Assembly: GCF_000378145.1 (NCBI RefSeq) | Contig: NZ_KB899280.1 | Coordinates: forward strand, 62,001 to 126,000 | Direction: 5' to 3' | Source: Saccharibacillus kuerlensis DSM 22868 | Lineage (GTDB): Bacteria; Bacillota; Bacilli; Paenibacillales; Paenibacillaceae | Length of the DNA stretch: 64,000 nucleotides | Part shown: positions 26,837 through 35,025 of the stretch, piece by piece | Position numbering within the stretch: position 1 is the stretch's first letter | Layout: each line of letters begins with the position of its first letter | Notes under the pieces: generated by a model | What the model was told of the DNA's origin: nothing | Databases searched by the model: none | Seen by the model: only the letters and a program-made list of their open reading frames with translations | Position numbers and translations under genes: made by a program

Positions 26837-27688
26837 ATGAGTTCTTCCGTTCTGATGCGTAATAATGTTAAGATTTTGGGCGAAGGAACCCAATATATGA
26901 TTTTCGCACCGGGTTTCGGGTGCGACCAAAATATGTTTCGTTTTATCACCGGACATTTTGCAAAAGACTATCGAATTGTCCTGTTTGATTATGTAGGGAT
27001 CGGCGGGTCCGATTCTAGCGCTTATATGCCTGAGCGATACAGCAGCCTATCTGGTTATGTAGAAGACGTCCTTGATGTATGCAGCGCGATCGGCGCCCGC
27101 AATGCCATCTTTGTCGGTCATTCTGTCGGTGCCATGGTCGGATTGTTGGCTTCCATCAAGGAACCTGATTACTTCGAGCGTATGATATTGATCGGTCCAT
27201 CTCCATGTTACTTGAACGATCCGTCCAACGATTATTATGGAGGATTCGACCAAGAGCAGCTGGAAGGGCTGATTCAACTGCTCGAACAGAATTTTATGGG
27301 GTGGGGCAGCAGCCTGGCTGTCACAGTTATGCAAAATCCGGACCGGCCGGAACTTGCTTCCGAGTTGGAAGCCAGCTTTTGTTCGATCGATCCCGATGTT
27401 GCGCTTCGTTTTTCCATGGCAACGTTCTTCTCCGATAACCGGAAAGATTTATCGCTTGTTTCCGTCCCGTCATTGATCCTTCAATGCCGCGAAGATGTTA
27501 TTGCACCGGTTGCGGTCGGGGAATATATGAATCGGAACCTAAAAGAAAGTGAATACCGATTGATGCAGGCCACAGGTCATTGTCCGCATCTAAGTCATCC
27601 GCAGGAGACTATTGATCTGATTAGCGAATATCTGTCCCACCCGGCTGGCAGCAATCGTCGGACGGAGGAGAGAGGAAACCATGGATAA
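26837..27688 (+). CDS. rsbQ: RsbQ-type alpha/beta hydrolase (energy-stress signalling)
   Basis: 283 residues; TTGGAGGT precedes ATG 26837. The fold and length match RsbQ: oxyanion-hole strand MIFAPGFGCDQNMFR, nucleophile elbow GHSVGAM with S96, acid in QCREDVIAP (D220) and base in ATGHCPHLSHP (H248). In Bacillus subtilis RsbQ forms a complex with RsbP, a PAS-PP2C phosphatase, and is needed for energy-stress activation of sigma-B. Here the next gene overlaps by 8 bp and encodes only the PAS and coiled-coil portion, with a phosphatase gene a little further on, so the RsbP functions appear divided. It is the first gene of the signalling island. Confidence 0.88.
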   Translation: MSSSVLMRNNVKILGEGTQYMIFAPGFGCDQNMFRFITGHFAKDYRIVLFDYVGIGGSDSSAYMPERYSSLSGYVEDVLDVCSAIGARNAIFVGHSVGAMVGLLASIKEPDYFERMILIGPSPCYLNDPSNDYYGGFDQEQLEGLIQLLEQNFMGWGSSLAVTVMQNPDRPELASELEASFCSIDPDVALRFSMATFFSDNRKDLSLVSVPSLILQCREDVIAPVAVGEYMNRNLKESEYRLMQATGHCPHLSHPQETIDLISEYLSHPAGSNRRTEERGNHG

Positions 27689-28190
27689 TCGATTGCAGGA
27701 AGCGCCTTGCGGTTATCTTGCTTTGTCAGAAGATAACCGCATAATTGAAGTTAATCAAACTCTTGCTTCATTACTCGGATATGAAGCGGAAACGTTAAAA
27801 GGCATGAAAATTGAATATATTCTTGCCAAATCCAGTCGACTGCTGTTTCAAATCTACTTTACTACCTTGATCACTTTAAACGGTAAATTGGATGAAATGT
27901 TTTTGTCGCTGTATTCGTTAACGGAAGTGGAGACGCCTGTGCTGCTGAGTGCAGCTCGGCGTGAACGTGCAGAAGGCATCCACTATGAATGCATACTTTT
28001 TCCGCTTACACGAAGAATCGAATACGAAAAGCAGCTCAATAAAGTCGAAAGTAAAGTTCATAATGCTTATCATCGCCTTCAAAGCGTAGAGCAGCAGCTG
28101 CAGCAAAAGGAAGCTCGGCTGGCAGAATTGAATGATCGTCTGGCTGCCATGGAAGCAAATGTTGAGCATAGTAATGAAGATTCCGTTTAA
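27681..28190 (+). CDS. PAS domain plus coiled-coil protein (RsbP sensor half without phosphatase)
   Basis: 169 residues; ATG 27681 overlaps the rsbQ stop by 8 bp, with GGAGGAGAG upstream. A PAS domain covers about residues 5-115 (GYLALSEDNRIIEVNQTLAS, LLGYEAETLKGMKIEYIL). Residues about 115-160 are a coiled coil (KQLNKVESKVHNAYHRLQSV, QQLQQKEARLAELNDRLAAM). In known RsbP this pair of elements is followed by a PP2C phosphatase, which is absent here because a stop codon and terminator come next. It probably binds a small ligand supplied or altered by RsbQ and relays it to the separate phosphatase downstream (inference). Confidence 0.8.
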   Translation: MDNRLQEAPCGYLALSEDNRIIEVNQTLASLLGYEAETLKGMKIEYILAKSSRLLFQIYFTTLITLNGKLDEMFLSLYSLTEVETPVLLSAARRERAEGIHYECILFPLTRRIEYEKQLNKVESKVHNAYHRLQSVEQQLQQKEARLAELNDRLAAMEANVEHSNEDSV

Positions 28191-28231
28191 AGCAGCACTT
28201 TAGTAATAAAGAAAGACGAATATCTTCTAAA

Positions 28232-28259
28232 AGACAGCCTATATAGGCTGTCTTTTTTT
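28232..28259 (+). terminator. Intrinsic terminator after the rsbQ-PAS pair
   Basis: AGACAGCCTAT / ATAGGCTGTCT form a perfect 22-bp palindrome (28232-28253) followed by a T tract to 28259. Confidence 0.85.
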
Positions 28260-28263
28260 ACGG

Positions 28264-28292
28264 TTGGCCAAGTTATTTGAAATCGCTATACA
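28264..28292 (+). promoter_or_regulatory. Candidate promoter of the REC-PP2C gene
   Basis: TTGGCC (28264-28269), 17-bp spacer, TATACA (28287-28292), 55 bp before the start codon and just after the terminator. Confidence 0.45.
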
Positions 28293-28346
28293 TAAGTATT
28301 CTTCTTTTGACGAATATATAGATAACCTACTTGAAGGAGCAGCGCC

Positions 28347-29480
28347 ATGAGTATATTAATTGTCGATGACTCCAAGTTAAATATTTCTTATCTGCAAGGT
28401 ATTCTTGAACGAGCCGGCTACTCCGAAATATTGACGGCGGATTCCGCACTTGCAGCCCTTCAAATCCTCGGTATTCAAGATCATACTGCTCCACGTAGGC
28501 CTGCCGATATTGACTTGATCCTGCTCGATATTGTTATGCCCGGCATGGATGGGATTGCCGCCTGCCGCGAGATCAAAGAGCACGATGTATATTCAGATCT
28601 GCCGATTATTTTTTTGACTGGCAACCGGACGATGTTTAGGGAAGCTTTCAACGCGGGAGGTATGGACTTTATCGAGAAAGGCAGTCCGGAATTTGAACTG
28701 CTTGCCCGTGTTCAGTCCGCTTTGAAGCTGAAGAAAGAAATGGATATTCGCAAAAATCGTGAAATTAAAATGGGCAGAGAACTTCAGCTAGCCAAGCATC
28801 TTCAAAATAGTGTGCTCAGCCCATCCATTACGGAGAATTCAATTGGCATTCACGGCAAGTACATCCAGTCGGATGAAGTATCGGGCGATATGTTCTATTG
28901 GGCGAAGGTTGGTCGAAACAGGTATGCTGTTCTGCTTCTTGATGTATCTGGGCACGGACTTTCCGCCGCTCTAATCAGTATGTCAATCCGATCTCTTCTG
29001 GATGGGCTTGTAGGCAGACTTATTGAACCGCAATTGGTCTGTGAAGAATTAAATACAAAAGTGCTAAATTTATTTAAAAATAGCAAGCAAACGGTTTACT
29101 TTACCGCTATTTATCTTCTAATAGATCTTGAATCCCGTTTGATTCAATATTTTAATGCAGGTCATCCGCCTGCCCTTGCGCTATCGGAAGCGGGAGAAAT
29201 TCGACAGCTTGGAGGAACAACGATTCCGATTGGGATTAAGAAAGAAATCAAGGGAAACGTTCAGAGTTGGAAGATTGACTCCCCAACCAAAATTCTTCTC
29301 TACACCGATGGGCTTATTGAGCGTCCAGGTTTGTCTATTAGAGAAGCTGTTGCTAATCTGGGAAGTTATTCGCAGGAGCTTCGTCATCTGCCGAATGAAG
29401 AATTTGTTGAACAGATCGCTAGATTGGCTATTCATAAGACCGATGATGTATGTGTGATTTCTATCGACTTAGCAGAATAA
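28347..29480 (+). CDS. Response regulator with PP2C (SpoIIE/RsbU-type) phosphatase output
   Basis: 377 residues; TGAAGGAGC precedes ATG 28347. Receiver domain at about 1-130: acidic pair D7/D8 in LIVDDSK, phospho-acceptor D61 in LLDIVMPGMDG, switch Thr in FLTGN; the usual Lys is in FIEKGS. A coiled helix (about 130-160) leads to a PP2C domain (about 175-377) with the metal-binding motifs SDEVSGDMFYWA, LLLDVSGHGLSAALIS, NAGHPPAL, LLYTDGLIE and KTDDVCVISI. It should dephosphorylate a STAS antagonist such as the one encoded at 31817 under control of an upstream kinase. It has its own promoter and is followed by the riboswitch. Confidence 0.9.
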   Translation: MSILIVDDSKLNISYLQGILERAGYSEILTADSALAALQILGIQDHTAPRRPADIDLILLDIVMPGMDGIAACREIKEHDVYSDLPIIFLTGNRTMFREAFNAGGMDFIEKGSPEFELLARVQSALKLKKEMDIRKNREIKMGRELQLAKHLQNSVLSPSITENSIGIHGKYIQSDEVSGDMFYWAKVGRNRYAVLLLDVSGHGLSAALISMSIRSLLDGLVGRLIEPQLVCEELNTKVLNLFKNSKQTVYFTAIYLLIDLESRLIQYFNAGHPPALALSEAGEIRQLGGTTIPIGIKKEIKGNVQSWKIDSPTKILLYTDGLIERPGLSIREAVANLGSYSQELRHLPNEEFVEQIARLAIHKTDDVCVISIDLAE

Positions 29481-29497
29481 CTAGGAATAAAGTGTGA

Positions 29498-29525
29498 TTG
29501 AATGTCTGAATATTTTAGGTATAAT
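29498..29525 (+). promoter_or_regulatory. Promoter of the riboswitch-controlled operon
   Basis: TTGAAT (29498-29503), 16-bp spacer, TATAAT (29520-29525), 27 bp before the first base of the riboswitch P1 helix. Confidence 0.65.
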
Positions 29526-29551
29526 GGATTAATATAAAGGTACAAAGAACT

Positions 29552-29647
29552 AGAGATCTGATGAAACGGCAAACTTTACCGAAAGGGAAGGACGCAAAGC
29601 TACGGGCCTAAGTGTACATAAGGCAGCCGAGCCACCGAAAGGTCTCT
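29552..29647 (+). ncRNA. Cyclic di-GMP-I (GEMM-I) riboswitch
   Basis: Conserved GEMM-I blocks occur in order: ACGGCAAAC, ACCGAAAGG with the GAAA tetraloop, GGACGCAAAGCTACGGGCCT, and AAGGCAGCCGAGCCACCG. The ends AGAGATC (29552-29558) and GGTCTCT (29641-29647) close as P1. It binds c-di-GMP between the two helical stacks. The downstream gene encodes a DUF342 protein, a frequent neighbour of this riboswitch in Firmicutes. No U-tailed terminator lies between it and the gene, so control is probably at translation start: AGAGA of the ribosome binding site (29703-29707) can pair with TCTCT of the P1 3' strand (29643-29647) when P1 is open. Confidence 0.92.
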
Positions 29648-29718
29648 TAGTATATATATGACCATGAAACCGCTTTCTGCCCGAAGGCCAAAACTTACAG
29701 CGAGAGAGGGTGAAAAAG

Positions 29719-31788
29719 ATGGAACGAAATATCGTGTCGAAGGGGAAGACCGTAGCGGAAGCGGTTAATCTGGCTTTAGATCTTCTGGGAGCTTCTAAAG
29801 AAAATGTGAACATCGAGATATTGGACAACGGTTCAAAAGGGGTGTTCGGACTGGCTGCCAAACCGGCTGTCGTTCGGGTCACGATGGCGGCAGCGGCAGT
29901 TCCGGTTCGCGAAGTTGCTGCTCCCCTAGACCTTGACCAGTTGGTTGCCCTTACGCTTGATTCGGAGCCCGGGATTACCGATCAAGTTCCCCGTGTGCCG
30001 GATCGAGAAGAATCGGTCAGCCGTTCAAACGAGGAACATAAAGCCGGAAAACTGTGGGTGGAAGGAGGCGTAGTATACGTAAAATCGACTCCAGAACGCC
30101 GCCCGCTAATTGGCCCGGTCAAACACGCCAAAATATTCAAAAATGGTGTTCCGGTTGAAACGATGGAACCTTTAACCGATCAAGATCGGGTAACCGTCGA
30201 GGTGCAAATGGAACATAAAGAACCGGAATGGGAATTGATTGCGTCAGAAAACTTGATGAGCGTTACGCTGCATGTTAAGCCAGGTTACCGTCTGCATCGC
30301 TCTCTGCGGGATATGGAGCCTCGTCATCAAGCTGAATTCGAATTTGAAGAAGTAAAGCTGCCGATCGAAATTCAGTCCGCTGAGGTGCTTAACGCTTTGA
30401 AGGAAAAAGAAATAACTTTCGGAATTAAGCATGACGTCATCAAAGAAGCCTGTCGATCAACGATACCGGGAAGTTTTCTGATTTCGGAAGGCATGCCGGC
30501 AGCTCCAGGTTCACATGGCCACTTTCAAACTCCAATCGAGACAGGAAAGCAGCATACTTTTCCGAGAAAGCGTGAAGATGGGACTGTAGATTACAGAGAA
30601 ATCCGCGAATTCCCAACAGCAAGCGAAGGCGAAATACTTGGAACGATCATTCCGCCTGTTCCGGGAGTGCCCGGTATTAACGTTAAAGGCGAAACCGTCG
30701 AAGCACCACCGGTCTACCCGGTTGTGTCGATAGAAGGAATCGGTGTAGCATGGACCGACAACGGCAGCCGGGCAATCGCAATGAAAGCGGGAATGCCGCA
30801 AATTCGCCAGCAGGGCTATCGGATTAAAGTCTCCATTGTTCCTAAACTGATTCATGCAGGGGATGTGGATCTAACAAGCGGGAATATTCATTTTCAAGGT
30901 GACGTGGAAATCACCGGATCCGTTCAAGACGGAATGAAAGTCGATACGAGCGGAAGCATTCTCATTTTCGGAAATGTCAATATGTCGAGCATTTCGGCTT
31001 CTCAATCGCTGATTGTACGGAATAATATCATTTCAAGCAAAATCACGGTAGGAAAAAGCAACATGCTGTATGCCGAGATGGAGCCTCTGTTGAAGGAGAT
31101 CTCCGAAAGGCTGATTGTACTCAAAGCGGCTATTCACCAGATCAGCCATGCTGCTGCCTTTAAAGTGACAGATTTCCAATCTTCAGGTCTTCGTCCGCTG
31201 CTGAATGTTTTGTTGAAAGGGAAATTCAAACATTTGAATGAAACTTTCGTCAATTTGTTCGAAAAGATTGAAGGCAGTCGGTCTTACTTGGATGAAGAAT
31301 GGATCAAATACGCGGGAGAACTGCACGGCAAATTTTTGAATCCGATGAACAGCAAACTGCTGGAATTGAATGATCTGGACCAATTCCAGCAGCAAACCGA
31401 TTATTTGCACGCTATTGTCGAGCCGCCGCTGGAAAACCACGTATTTGCGAAGTTTGACTATGCTCATAACAGTCATATTTATTCAGGAGGTGATGTCGTC
31501 GCCAGCAAAGGCTTTTATGGAAGCATGGTGTACTGCCAAGGAGAGCTGGAAACACGCGGGTTTTTGAGAGGCGGGGTCTATTATGGGGGCAAAGGCATAC
31601 GAGTAGGAGAAGCCGGCTCCGGCGGTAAACCGACCAAGCTGCATGTTCCTGAACATTCTGAAATCAGAGTGATGAAAGCTCTTGAAGGCACAGTTCTTCA
31701 GATTGGCAAGAGATCGATGCAGCTGTCTGCGGAAGAACACAATATCCATGCAAGACTCAATGCCAATGGCGAACTTATTCTCCACTAA
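29719..31788 (+). CDS. Jag-N plus DUF342 (FapA-like) protein under riboswitch control
   Basis: 689 residues from ATG 29719; GAGAGAGGG (29702-29710) is the ribosome binding site, and a GTG at 29710 overlaps it and is rejected. Residues about 1-52 are a Jag-N domain (VSKGKTVAEAVNLALDLLGA, then GSKGVFGLAAKPAVVRV). The rest is DUF342, a large beta-helix polymerisation domain (TIPGSFLISEGMPAAPGSHG, FQGDVEITGSVQDGMKVDTS, GSILIFGNVN) with a helical insert at about 450-560. DUF342 proteins include FapA-like factors tied to flagella and surface polymers; the biochemical role is not settled. It heads the operon that continues with the STAS gene 28 bp later, so c-di-GMP may control the partner-switch genes too. 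Confidence 0.85.
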   Translation: MERNIVSKGKTVAEAVNLALDLLGASKENVNIEILDNGSKGVFGLAAKPAVVRVTMAAAAVPVREVAAPLDLDQLVALTLDSEPGITDQVPRVPDREESVSRSNEEHKAGKLWVEGGVVYVKSTPERRPLIGPVKHAKIFKNGVPVETMEPLTDQDRVTVEVQMEHKEPEWELIASENLMSVTLHVKPGYRLHRSLRDMEPRHQAEFEFEEVKLPIEIQSAEVLNALKEKEITFGIKHDVIKEACRSTIPGSFLISEGMPAAPGSHGHFQTPIETGKQHTFPRKREDGTVDYREIREFPTASEGEILGTIIPPVPGVPGINVKGETVEAPPVYPVVSIEGIGVAWTDNGSRAIAMKAGMPQIRQQGYRIKVSIVPKLIHAGDVDLTSGNIHFQGDVEITGSVQDGMKVDTSGSILIFGNVNMSSISASQSLIVRNNIISSKITVGKSNMLYAEMEPLLKEISERLIVLKAAIHQISHAAAFKVTDFQSSGLRPLLNVLLKGKFKHLNETFVNLFEKIEGSRSYLDEEWIKYAGELHGKFLNPMNSKLLELNDLDQFQQQTDYLHAIVEPPLENHVFAKFDYAHNSHIYSGGDVVASKGFYGSMVYCQGELETRGFLRGGVYYGGKGIRVGEAGSGGKPTKLHVPEHSEIRVMKALEGTVLQIGKRSMQLSAEEHNIHARLNANGELILH

Positions 31789-31816
31789 ATCTTTTACCTA
31801 TCAGGGGTGACGCAAA

Positions 31817-32128
31817 TTGTTTACGTATCAGCTAAGTGAAAAAGAAGATGAAATTGTCGTTTTGTGCGAAGGAGATATCGATATTGACGCCGGCGACATG
31901 ATCGAAGAAGACATTCAGCCAGCTGTTTCTCTTCGGGATCGAATTGTATTGGATTTCGAACAGGTTTATTTCGTCGATTCCTCGGGAATCGGACTTATTA
32001 TCAGCCTGGTTTCTGATCTGCAGGAAGCAGGAAAAACTGTCCGTATCGAAAAAGTGCGTCCAGAAGTGATGGAAGTGTTCGAACTTCTGCAAATTGACGA
32101 AATACTGGGCAAGCAGGTATTCGAATAA
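31817..32128 (+). CDS. STAS-domain anti-sigma factor antagonist (SpoIIAA/RsbV type)
   Basis: 103 residues from TTG 31817, with AGGGGTGA ending 6 bp upstream. The STAS fold is complete and the phosphorylation loop reads YFVDSSGIGLIISL, with S55/S56 in the position phosphorylated by RsbW/SpoIIAB-type kinases. Such antagonists free a sigma factor or other target from an anti-sigma kinase when dephosphorylated by a PP2C enzyme. The matching kinase domain is fused to the membrane protein encoded at 32926 and a PP2C is encoded at 28347. The non-ATG start may keep its amount low. Confidence 0.9.
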   Translation: MFTYQLSEKEDEIVVLCEGDIDIDAGDMIEEDIQPAVSLRDRIVLDFEQVYFVDSSGIGLIISLVSDLQEAGKTVRIEKVRPEVMEVFELLQIDEILGKQVFE

Positions 32129-32238
32129 TCGATTGACGTATCACTGGGTATTGAAGCTGGTTCTTTCGTTTATACGAAAGATAATCATATAAGGCATGCG
32201 CAAGCTGCCCATCTCAGCTTAGGAAGGAGAAGGAGACC

Positions 32239-32328
32239 ATGAAGAACCGCATCCTCTGGATTGCTTACAACGCTACGATTCTTGCAGCACTGGCTCTTGC
32301 AACTGTCGTTCAAAGACCGTGGAACTAA
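32239..32328 (+). CDS. 29-residue membrane peptide
   Basis: ATG 32239 has an excellent ribosome binding site (AAGGAGAAGGAG) and the frame runs 29 codons to TAA 32326-32328. The product starts MKNRILWIAYNATI, continues with a hydrophobic stretch rich in Leu, Ala and Val, and ends QRPWN, so it is a single membrane-spanning peptide with a positive N-terminus. It is followed by a GC-rich hairpin and lies between the STAS gene and the DUF5317 gene. The position suggests a regulator of one of the membrane proteins here, but that is inference; it could also be a leader peptide for the hairpin. Confidence 0.55.
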   Translation: MKNRILWIAYNATILAALALATVVQRPWN

Positions 32329-32342
32329 TTTCCTTCTTCTGT

Positions 32343-32367
32343 GCGGGGTCGGTCGATCCGATCCCGC
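32343..32367 (+). terminator. GC-rich hairpin before the DUF5317 gene (possible attenuator)
   Basis: GCGGGGTCGG (32343-32352) pairs with CCGATCCCGC (32358-32367) with one G-T mismatch around a 5-base loop. The following bases (CTTACTTTTAT) are T-rich but not a clean U-tract, so termination may be partial. Confidence 0.45.
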
Positions 32368-32395
32368 CTTACTTTTATAATCCCAGGGTGAGAAT

Positions 32396-32929
32396 ATGAT
32401 CTATTTTCTGCTTATCGGATTCATCTGGATTCTTCTGCTTGGAAGAAACCCGTTATCTATGCTTGTTCATCTTAGATTTAAAGCCTCCTATTTGCTTATC
32501 GGCAGCCTGGCTGTCCAAATCTACCTGGCGTTTTATACTTTGAATACAGGGGAAACCATCCCTTTCCTGCTTGAAGGGGCTTTTGCAACTCTGGTGGTCT
32601 GTCTAATCCTCAATCGCGAGAAAGCGGGCGTTCCGCTGATCGGCATGGGGTGTTTCTTGAACCTTCTGGCAATCTTGGCCAACGGAGGGAAGATGCCCGT
32701 TTCTTCGACCGCTCTGAAAATGGCCGGTCTCGAGCATCTGGACGATTACAGCCTGGCTTCCCGTCACAGCAGCATGCAGGATAATCCGTTATCGTGGTTA
32801 GGGGACTGGATCCCGTTTCTTACACCTGTTGGTACTAATTATGTGCTCAGCCCGGGCGACCTGGTCGTCGGAATCGGTCTAATCATGTTTATGTTGGGCA
32901 TATCGAAGCGGAGGACTGCGATCAAATGA
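32396..32929 (+). CDS. DUF5317-family membrane protein
   Basis: 177 residues from ATG 32396, with CAGGGTGAG upstream. Four or five membrane helices are predicted (FLLIGFIWILLLG; YLLIGSLAVQIYLAFY; ATLVVCLILN; LIGMGCFLNLLAILAN; VVGIGLIMFMLGI). The conserved block NGGKMPVSSTALKMAGLEHL, then SRHSSMQDNPLSWLGDWIPF, is characteristic of DUF5317. No function is known for the family. Its stop overlaps the start of the HD-GYP/ATPase gene (ATGA), so the two products are made together and may form a membrane complex. Confidence 0.75.
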   Translation: MIYFLLIGFIWILLLGRNPLSMLVHLRFKASYLLIGSLAVQIYLAFYTLNTGETIPFLLEGAFATLVVCLILNREKAGVPLIGMGCFLNLLAILANGGKMPVSSTALKMAGLEHLDDYSLASRHSSMQDNPLSWLGDWIPFLTPVGTNYVLSPGDLVVGIGLIMFMLGISKRRTAIK

Positions 32930-35025
32930 AGGAGCAGAACAGCTATACATTGTCGCTTTGTTCCCTGGGATTGCTCTCTTTGATGTTCTTGTTCTGGAAC
33001 GCAGGATCTATTCCTTATGTAGAAGTTCTGTTCGTTCTGGTTTTAATTATTATGCTGGATTTGTTCCCTGTTCGTCTCCCCAGCGGTGACCAATACAGCG
33101 GAGGGATCATTGGCGTATTCATTCTGCTGCTGGCATACGGCATCGAGACAGCTCTGATGGCTTTGTATGTCAGTACTTTTTTATACTATCTAAAAACTTC
33201 AAATTGGAATATTCGCAAGCTTGCCCGCTTTCGTTTGCTGACAACATGGGGGATGTATTCAATCTGCCTATTGCTTTGTCATATCCTTTTAATGCAGCTG
33301 GGTACCGCTTCCTTATATATTAAAACAGCATTAGGGATCGTTTTGTTTGAGATGTTAAATATCTTTCTGATTGCGGGAATTCGTACGACGGTAGGCGGAA
33401 GTCCCTTTTTTGAAAATATCCATTTTAAATTTAAAGAAATTTTGATCCCGGCGCTGCTCGGCATTGCGGTGATCCCGCATTTTGTTCATCATCTGGGAAC
33501 GGAAGGCCTGTTCTCCGAAACCATATATACATCCGTATTTTTATTCTTTATCCTATTTTTCTCGCGCGAGTTTTTGAAGCAGTATACAGCCCGAAAAAAG
33601 GCGTCCGAAGAGTTTGTCCGGTTAGCGGAGGTCAAGCAGGAAAAAGATTCGCAGGGGCACGGGAACCGAATTGGAGTCATTATGGAAAGTTTTCTGGATG
33701 AGATTTCCTATTCGAAATCGAATCGAAGCGAATTGGTGATGTCGGCCATTCTGCATGACATCGGCAAAACGCTTATTCCGGCACATGTCTTTCGCAAGCG
33801 AGGTGCTTTATCTCTGACCGAGGAAGCGGAATATCGCTCGCACACCGAGTTTGGAGCGCAAATTCTGTTCAATATTACGGGAGAGGCCAAGATTGCGGAT
33901 TGGATTCGTTACCATCACGAAAGATTCGATGGAAAAGGATATCCGAAAGGCCTGAAAGGCAAAGAAATTCCTTATGAAGCAAGAATCATTACGCTCTGCA
34001 ATGAATTGGATCATCTGATGATGCGTTATGAAGATGACGGTTATGTAGCATCGCTGCTTCAAGAGATGGCCGGAAAAGTGTTGGACCCTGCTTTGGCAGC
34101 CGGAGTTGAGGTTTCATTTGTAACATCCATTCGTCAAGCGCTTGTGTTCAATCGGGAAGAACCGGAAGAGCAGCCGCAAGGAGAGGAATTCCAGGAAGAC
34201 GGGTTGTTTATCGGAGGCACAAGTTTGATCAAATATACACCCGGAATTTCGATCGAACATGCGCTTTCCCGTTCGTTGGCTGACCAGATTGCCGCATTGG
34301 CTGACCGCTCGCTCAACGAACAGCAGACCTTTTACGAAATTTTCAAAGAATCCGGTAAGACATATGAAGTCCATTTCTACCCGGAATCTGAAAATGTTTC
34401 GATCGTGCTAACGGACATTACGCCTGCCGTTCGTTACCGGGAGAAGATGCATGAAGACATTTTGCACTCTTACAAGGGCGTAATCGAAACTTTGTCTCAC
34501 AGCAAAGTGGATCTCTGTCTGAATCGAGAAGAAATCGAAGACCATTTGGGTCGTTTTGTAGGAGCTATCGAAGTTAAAGAAAAATCAGATGTTGCGGCAA
34601 GCCGAAATTTCGTAGCGGAGCACTGTGCGGAGCGTTATGATGCGAAAAGGATCATGCACATTAAATTGGCCGTATCGGAAGGTGTAACTAACCTGATCAA
34701 GCATGCGGTTGGAGGAAGAGTATCGATCTATGAAAAGCAGGGAATGGTGCAAATCTTCATTACGGATCGAGGCTCGGGTATTCCTCTGCACGAACTGCCC
34801 AAAACAATTCTTGTTTCCGGCTACAGCAGCAAACGTTCATTGGGAAAAGGATTTGCGCTGATGCATGCTTCGGCCGATCGTTTGCTTCTGCATACGTATG
34901 GTAAAGGCACTTCGCTTCTGTTGGAGTTTGAAGCGGCTCCTTCAAGCGAGCAGGCCGATGCTCAATCGGCAGAGAAGAAAGAGTCTCAAACTGCTGTTTC
35001 CAATCCACCTGCCACACAGCCTTAA
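32926..35025 (+). CDS. Membrane protein fusing HD-GYP and RsbW-type ATPase domains
   Basis: 699 residues; ATG 32926 overlaps the previous stop, with AGCGGAGGA upstream. About residues 1-215: multi-helix membrane sensor. About 235-400: HD-GYP phosphodiesterase fold with H245, HD pair H277/D278, HTEFGAQIL, and H330/H331 in YHHERFDGKGYPKGLKGKEI. The last metal ligand, normally Asp in the AD motif, is Asn359 (LCNELDHL). About 430-520: PAS-like linker. About 530-670: GHKL ATPase of the RsbW/SpoIIAB class with N-box EGVTNLIKHA (E585, N589), G1 DRGSGIP (D614) and G2 GKGFALM. The tail is polar. It may bind or degrade c-di-GMP and phosphorylate the STAS protein encoded upstream. Confidence 0.85.
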   Translation: MKEQNSYTLSLCSLGLLSLMFLFWNAGSIPYVEVLFVLVLIIMLDLFPVRLPSGDQYSGGIIGVFILLLAYGIETALMALYVSTFLYYLKTSNWNIRKLARFRLLTTWGMYSICLLLCHILLMQLGTASLYIKTALGIVLFEMLNIFLIAGIRTTVGGSPFFENIHFKFKEILIPALLGIAVIPHFVHHLGTEGLFSETIYTSVFLFFILFFSREFLKQYTARKKASEEFVRLAEVKQEKDSQGHGNRIGVIMESFLDEISYSKSNRSELVMSAILHDIGKTLIPAHVFRKRGALSLTEEAEYRSHTEFGAQILFNITGEAKIADWIRYHHERFDGKGYPKGLKGKEIPYEARIITLCNELDHLMMRYEDDGYVASLLQEMAGKVLDPALAAGVEVSFVTSIRQALVFNREEPEEQPQGEEFQEDGLFIGGTSLIKYTPGISIEHALSRSLADQIAALADRSLNEQQTFYEIFKESGKTYEVHFYPESENVSIVLTDITPAVRYREKMHEDILHSYKGVIETLSHSKVDLCLNREEIEDHLGRFVGAIEVKEKSDVAASRNFVAEHCAERYDAKRIMHIKLAVSEGVTNLIKHAVGGRVSIYEKQGMVQIFITDRGSGIPLHELPKTILVSGYSSKRSLGKGFALMHASADRLLLHTYGKGTSLLLEFEAAPSSEQADAQSAEKKESQTAVSNPPATQP

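Follow-up and report, generated by a model that had tools for sequence, protein, structure and literature searches.

A predicted c-di-GMP-linked partner switch with a membrane HD-GYP kinase in Saccharibacillus kuerlensis and its relatives

Partner switching is best known as a way of controlling sigma factors. In Bacillus subtilis, the RsbU/RsbP-RsbV-RsbW and SpoIIE-SpoIIAA-SpoIIAB switches use a SpoIIE-type PP2C phosphatase, a single STAS protein with a DSSG motif and a SpoIIAB/RsbW-type ATPase. The same set of parts is encoded in Saccharibacillus kuerlensis DSM 22868 at positions 26837-35025 of the window, by which we mean the whole 64,000-nucleotide stretch analysed (contig NZ_KB899280.1, positions 62,001 to 126,000); coordinates without a locus number (L) refer to it. 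Judged by its domains, this module has the anatomy of a partner switch. It differs from the B. subtilis switches in that the kinase is a membrane HD-GYP fusion, a FapA protein and a riboswitch for cyclic di-GMP (c-di-GMP) belong to the unit, and no dedicated sigma factor was found nearby. We consider it rather probable that the module is a c-di-GMP-gated partner switch that works independently of a sigma factor.

Among described systems, HsbR-HsbA-HsbD and SiaABCD, both coupled to a diguanylate cyclase, come closest, as does RsbQ-RsbP for the input pair found in the window. HsbR-HsbA-HsbD of Pseudomonas aeruginosa and CrsR-CrsA resemble the module in having a REC-PP2C protein that acts on an antagonist, and HsbA is linked to c-di-GMP (PMC6482189). 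HsbR holds a kinase domain as well, and a diguanylate cyclase serves as its c-di-GMP partner (PMC6482189), whereas the module has a separate HD-GYP membrane protein as its presumed kinase and its c-di-GMP is read by RNA. In SiaABCD, also of P. aeruginosa, a switch of PP2C, kinase and antagonist is coupled to c-di-GMP, but SiaD is a cyclase, and riboswitch, FapA and HD-GYP fusion are not mentioned in the available sections of the source (PMC7647112). The MtT-MtG pair of Moorella thermoacetica likewise brings an RsbT-like switch kinase to bear on a c-di-GMP enzyme, with the difference that the stressosome-type kinase and the cyclase are separate proteins (PMC7647112). RsbQ-RsbP shares with the window an RsbQ hydrolase followed by a PAS-coil. 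In RsbP homologues the PAS domain is fused to PP2C, kinase or GGDEF domains, two uncertain cases apart (PMC3183031), whereas the PAS-coil protein of the window stops at residue 169, has no recognised output domain and stands beside the REC-PP2C gene. Among the matches listed, no description of the module was found in the open-access literature (subscription papers and preprints lay outside the search), and no open-access paper was found that joins partner switching with HD-GYP. A first account of the block, made from the letters alone and called the sequence-only reading below, had named no described system with this layout; the layout is not a one-off, as related modules occur across Bacillales and Clostridia.

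The genes of the block all lie on the + strand. Every part named in the sequence-only reading, from RsbQ to the kinase, was recovered in place by profile, RNA and PDB matches; its gene list was incomplete, with a DUF5317 gene and a 29-residue membrane open reading frame (ORF) overlooked. The REC-PP2C gene (28347-29480; PF00072, E = 6.9e-24; PF07228, E = 1.4e-35) encodes a SpoIIE-type serine phosphatase, presumed to act on the STAS protein. A c-di-GMP-I aptamer (29558-29639; RF01051, 70.5 bits against a gathering threshold of 35, E = 8.4e-12) stands before the gene for a JagN-FapA (DUF342) β-solenoid protein of 689 residues (29719-31788; PF14804, PF20250, PF03961), whose start is probably the ATG at 29719 behind the Shine-Dalgarno sequence; the listed ORF began at GTG 29710. 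The single-domain STAS antagonist (31817-32128; PF01740, E = 5.3e-14; ant_ant_sig above cut-off), the DUF5317 membrane protein (32396-32929; PF17248, E = 3.7e-31) and the membrane HD-GYP-like/HATPase protein of 699 residues, the presumed STAS kinase (32926-35025; PF13487, E = 1.7e-25; PF13581, E = 4.4e-10), follow in that order. Catalytic residues of REC, PP2C, HATPase and STAS are all intact in the window. Across the proteins compared, the REC Asp and the first PP2C Asp are each kept in 25/25 (two further acidic PP2C positions, intact in the window, vary in 4/25), the HATPase kinase motifs are intact in 22/22 and the putative phosphosite Ser55 of the STAS protein, which aligns with the DSSG of SpoIIAA (1th8_B), is Ser in 24/24.

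For comparison, 98 related genomes were searched with the HD-GYP-HATPase protein and the STAS protein, and the regions found were fetched and annotated. Loss of the gene order in relatives had been named beforehand as a result that would speak against a module. The order REC-PP2C, FapA, STAS, (DUF5317), HD-GYP-HATPase is kept in all 16 same-genus genomes and in three others (G035, G076 and G084), which gives 19 loci. Outside these, the extra-genome locus L093 also shows REC-PP2C, FapA, STAS and HD-GYP-HATPase in this order, and in G088 the contig runs out within FapA. The S. kuerlensis genome has three SpoIIE-PP2C genes (one in the window, one in a second locus, L077, and one on C22). Its four PF01740 matches include two free STAS proteins, the one in the window and one on C22, a count that covers PF01740 but not STAS_2-only proteins. 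The C22 protein lies in the sporulation locus, beside a SpoIIAB-like ATPase and the best SigBFG match. With the order conserved, the residues intact and few other free STAS proteins in the genome, the proposal that phosphatase, antagonist and kinase form one unit was upheld, and the STAS, PP2C and HATPase of the module most likely act on one another. As a separate observation, four same-genus loci (L065-L068) carry an extra REC-PP2C gene on the opposite flank of the HD-GYP-HATPase gene.

The wider distribution was followed with a HATPase-end scan of 84,980 species genomes, which gave 68 loci. Set aside were L087-L103 and L113, from genomes already in the set or their close kin (L089 and L093 from extra genomes), and the weak matches L141-L154; the remaining 36 outgroup loci were fetched by HATPase alone, and among them L109/L110 and L124/L133 are closely related pairs that do not count as independent. 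A phylum-wide STAS scan was kept out of the counts, its weaker matches being mostly probable SpoIIAA. Related modules were found in Bacillaceae and Clostridia, and in several lineages the HATPase is unfused to HD-GYP. The order in Oceanobacillus (L131) is riboswitch, HATPase, STAS, PP2C, FapA, STAS, and in Brevibacillus (L118) it is riboswitch, DUF5317, HD-GYP-HATPase, HAMP protein, STAS, PP2C, FapA, STAS. FapA lies within the fetched DNA of 26/36 outgroup loci. A STAS gene stands within 250 nucleotides downstream of FapA in 22 of these 26, and the HATPase gene and a STAS gene on either flank lie within 250 nucleotides in 11. Taking all loci with FapA together, STAS lies at most 250 nucleotides downstream in 44/49, with L079 entered as a miss owing to an overlong STAS frame. 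In the outgroups the link of STAS to FapA is closer than its link to the kinase. FapA is therefore the leading candidate for a further partner of STAS, contrary to its earlier treatment as a bystander.

JagN-FapA, the scaffold-like member of the set, has similarity to Jag (3gku) and MinC. Its structure was modelled with a predicted local distance difference test (pLDDT) of 82.3, and the FapA fold search gave no match in the PDB at or below E = 0.001. The FapA of Vibrio is a DUF342 protein. The module protein shares its name, but neighbours a STAS protein and carries Jag_N. In V. vulnificus, FapA binds only dephosphorylated EIIA-Glc (PMC6877527), which by analogy offers a useful but distant precedent for a FapA-STAS contact.

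Two observations on neighbouring genes belong to the same set of loci. Members of one membrane protein family turn up within or close to the module in 9/44 compared loci (L118, 9809-11425; L081, 10864-12501; L082, 10537-12123); the one scanned carries a HAMP domain, and the family may be an input sensor. Module variants in L082 (5577-18156, - strand), L083 (4274-9123, + strand), L117, L121 and L125 are joined to an SDR gene and to genes that by eye resemble those for GTP cyclohydrolase I and 6-pyruvoyl-tetrahydropterin synthase. Those of L082 and L083 sit behind a c-di-GMP riboswitch, which may connect c-di-GMP with the making of pterins.

That the antagonist sits in a c-di-GMP-sensing operon is correct for the window but does not hold generally: the riboswitch precedes FapA in 5/19 full-order loci (directly upstream in the window, L061, L062, L075 and L076) and is absent in 14. 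For the outgroups, an RNA model was built from seven aptamers and run on 34 of the 36 loci (0.571 megabases (Mb); L129 and L137 left out). It found 23 c-di-GMP-I aptamers in 19/34 loci, all on the HATPase strand, compared with 0.50 expected at a background density of 0.88 per Mb (464 in 525 Mb of the 98 related genomes, with filters that drop some weak matches). Even at a background of 5 per Mb, the excess near modules would stay large. Rfam re-found 20/20 aptamers in 16 of the 19 aptamer-bearing loci (L105, L110 and L111 were outside the re-check) and, in eight loci where the model had no match, likewise gave no c-di-GMP riboswitch. The aptamer heads HATPase in L131 and L120, and both HATPase and DUF5317 in L118. 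In the S. kuerlensis genome, 34 GGDEF and 8 HD_5 matches were obtained, so c-di-GMP signalling is rich in this organism.

The direction of the riboswitch was assessed from the sequences behind the aptamers. An intrinsic terminator is predicted at most 60 nucleotides after 18/31 aptamers, compared with 20/600 random windows of the same loci, which include coding DNA. The 3' end of the aptamer (CCGAA onward) is complementary to the terminator, with pairing above the shuffled mean in 16/18 cases and a combined p of 1.4e-6, although the loci are related and only 5/18 reach p 0.05 alone. In the relatives the riboswitch looks like an OFF architecture, in which the terminator would form when ligand closes the aptamer. 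An ON riboswitch, guessed from complementarity between the P1 strand and the Shine-Dalgarno sequence, was rejected, as the terminators of the relatives point to OFF. For the window, thermodynamic folding predicts an expression platform (29670-29710) in which an anti-Shine-Dalgarno, CCGCUUUCU (29670-29678), pairs with the Shine-Dalgarno, GAGAGAGGG (29702-29710); by analogy, OFF control of translation would be the likely mode.

From these parts we infer the following steps of phosphorylation and binding, and the following riboswitch direction and outputs, for S. kuerlensis. The REC-PP2C protein, set through REC by a histidine kinase and perhaps also by RsbQ-PAS, would dephosphorylate Ser55 of the STAS protein. 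Unphosphorylated STAS would bind the HATPase domain of the membrane HD-GYP protein and be phosphorylated there, and the STAS form free of kinase would act on the FapA protein encoded next to it. The output would be FapA and/or the HD-GYP domain in cis, instead of a sigma factor. The riboswitch would set the supply of FapA and STAS, most likely OFF at high c-di-GMP, and c-di-GMP may be read a second time by the HD-GYP domain. A fuller version can be offered only tentatively: a widespread, sigma-free machine of Bacillota with two readings of c-di-GMP, in which the riboswitch limits the synthesis of antagonist and FapA, the kinase carries a non-catalytic HD-GYP receptor, phosphorylation toggles STAS between membrane kinase and FapA, the (R/K)PW micro-protein and DUF5317 are membrane accessories, and the whole takes a bistable c-di-GMP decision.

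How the HD-GYP domain works bears directly on this proposal. The protein consists of N-terminal membrane helices, an HD-GYP-like domain, an α/β linker domain without a Pfam match and a SpoIIAB/RsbW-type HATPase at about residues 510-672. Its model (pLDDT 82.6; predicted template modelling score, pTM, 0.43) gave fold matches to 4r8z, 4mcw and SpoIIAB (1l0o/1th8). In alignment with PmGH, residues H189, H221, D222, H250, H276 and H277 are kept in 31/31 homologues and K225 in 30/31; the D305 position is N or S in 27/31 and D in 4, and the E185 position is not conserved. E185 and D305 correspond to D241 and N359 in the window protein, respectively, which has six of the eight PmGH metal ligands and falls short of the full set. 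The sequence-only reading had described the kinase as a c-di-GMP-type protein. To call it a c-di-GMP-type enzyme would be unsafe, given that 27 of the 31 homologues have N or S in place of one catalytic metal ligand. An active HD-GYP phosphodiesterase as the direct output, with STAS on the HATPase switching hydrolysis and feedback through the riboswitch, is worth weighing and seems to us somewhat unlikely. It would fit the six invariant ligands and the near-invariant Lys, and also the behaviour of PmGH, in which most ligand-to-Ala changes remove activity but E185A and D305A, at the two positions that differ in the module, retain weak c-di-GMP hydrolysis (PMC4159591). Combined with an OFF riboswitch, such an enzyme would give positive feedback and possibly bistability. 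The N or S at the D305 position argues the other way, as do the lineages with unfused HATPase and DvhD, which has an Asn aligned at this place and binds c-di-GMP without cleaving it, although DvhD lacks the HD motif too (PMC13090378). We regard a c-di-GMP receptor as the somewhat more probable role of the HD-GYP domain and a weak enzyme as the somewhat less probable one.

A sigma factor as the hidden target is the other main alternative. In a classical anti-sigma switch, the HATPase would hold a sigma factor encoded elsewhere, STAS would release it and FapA would be a passenger. The closest PDB entries to HATPase and STAS, namely SpoIIAB/SpoIIAA and RsbW/RsbV or TM1442, are what such a switch would lead one to expect, but the kinase of this lineage sits in the membrane and, in agreement with the sequence-only reading, no sigma family was found among the nine block proteins scanned. 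A phmmer search of 95 loci with the SigF-like protein gave no other SigF-like ORF, its own locus aside, in a search that divergent or extracytoplasmic function (ECF) sigma factors could escape. The SigBFG search of the genome gave four long matches, all below the strict cut-off; since the presumed SigF beside the SpoIIAB-like gene fails this cut-off too, the genome-wide test is weak, and a SigB-type factor is possible. A linked SigF/SigB-type target of the module is unlikely, and the anti-sigma reading as a whole is unlikely as well. Since the genome's only other free PF01740 STAS protein belongs to the sporulation locus and no module has a SigF-like gene near it, a partner switch independent of sigma factors is the interpretation we favour. 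Very unlikely, finally, is a set of mere neighbours without a shared mechanism in which the riboswitch simply controls FapA. The aptamers immediately before FapA in the five loci named above would suit it, but the set travels together across families with altered order and fusions, aptamers are enriched near the modules, and in L131, L120 and L118 they precede HATPase or HATPase and DUF5317 instead. A sigma-I-type-looking ORF was seen by eye in Desulfosporosinus (L133, 17289-18002), about 2.7 kb past the last STAS gene, and was missed by the SigF-like search.

Several results weigh against a c-di-GMP-gated, sigma-independent switch, among them the restricted scope of the free-STAS count and the coding DNA and kinship in the terminator statistics given above. 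In 14/16 same-genus loci no c-di-GMP-I riboswitch was found in the 17-19 kb fetched, so the riboswitch is a common but dispensable layer. No terminator was found after the aptamer in the window leader, and the Shine-Dalgarno folds onto CCGCUUUCU both with P1 formed and with P1 blocked, so OFF applies to the window by analogy only. At the 14 same-genus loci without riboswitch, STAS is as close to the kinase gene as to FapA (at most 90 nucleotides in 13/14, one unscored), and the tighter FapA link is therefore a result of the outgroups. The genome also holds a REC-PP2C/HD-GYP-HATPase pair that lacks STAS (L077), along with other, unassigned HATPase_c_2 matches above cut-off, so pairing is not one-to-one.

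This second pair (L077, 8053-11400) lacks FapA as well as STAS and bears on the history of the window copy. In the tree of HD-GYP proteins the window groups with S. deserti and P. tarimensis (100/99), and the L077 copy clusters with other Saccharibacillus copies; the same three also group together in the FapA tree (90/87). The second locus of S. deserti (L086, 6559-8618) has REC-PP2C beside HATPase-end pieces only, with broken frames and with FapA and STAS absent. In both species it looks as though the window copy had taken the place of the second locus. Probably the window copy was gained from outside the genus or is an ancient paralogue that was retained, after which FapA and STAS disappeared from the original locus.

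Upstream of the core lie genes for an RsbQ-like α/β hydrolase of 283 residues (26837-27688; closest PDB chain in phmmer RsbQ 1wom, E = 9.2e-106) and, overlapping it, a stand-alone PAS and coiled-coil protein of 169 residues (27681-28190; PF00989, E = 1.8e-5; sensory_box above cut-off). Within the fetched DNA just three loci have them beside the core, namely the window and those of G009 (S. deserti) and G035 (P. tarimensis). With 3/19 full-order loci, RsbQ and PAS were rejected as core members, contrary to the sequence-only reading, and the pair is an add-on to the module. The earlier view of a single block also needs correction. A hairpin with a T run that resembles an intrinsic terminator lies at about 28230-28259 (by eye; not listed by the terminator scan), and the best promoter-like site of the region, a sigma-70-like TTGAAT-16-TATAAT (10/12), lies at 29498-29525 before the riboswitch; one operon from RsbQ to the kinase was rejected on these grounds. 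Together with a terminator-like GC hairpin from the scan (32343-32367), they indicate that the block probably comprises three or four transcription units. Promoter-like sites show no overall enrichment across the region (10 compared with a shuffle mean of 15.1). Hairpins resembling that at 32343-32367 follow the small ORF in L061, L062 and L075 (by eye).

The small ORF (32239-32328) encodes a 29-residue membrane micro-protein that ends in RPWN. Its relatives have 28-29 residues, end in (R/K)PW plus 0-2 residues and lie shortly before DUF5317. Such a protein precedes DUF5317 in 12/16 distinct loci (window, L061, L062, L073, L075 and L106-L112), by a pattern that was written after the members had been seen and that also matches 8 ORFs away from DUF5317. 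NCBIfam gave no match for four members, and in L106 the micro-protein starts 14 nucleotides behind a c-di-GMP aptamer.

From Clostridia to Bacillales, the set is conserved with no visible sigma target alongside and with a riboswitch in 19/34 outgroup loci searched. If the reading of a c-di-GMP-gated, sigma-independent switch is true, the module would be a c-di-GMP effector route in Gram-positive spore-formers and would suggest a possible function for these FapA (DUF342) proteins. A second messenger would then control both the supply and the activity of a phosphorylation switch.

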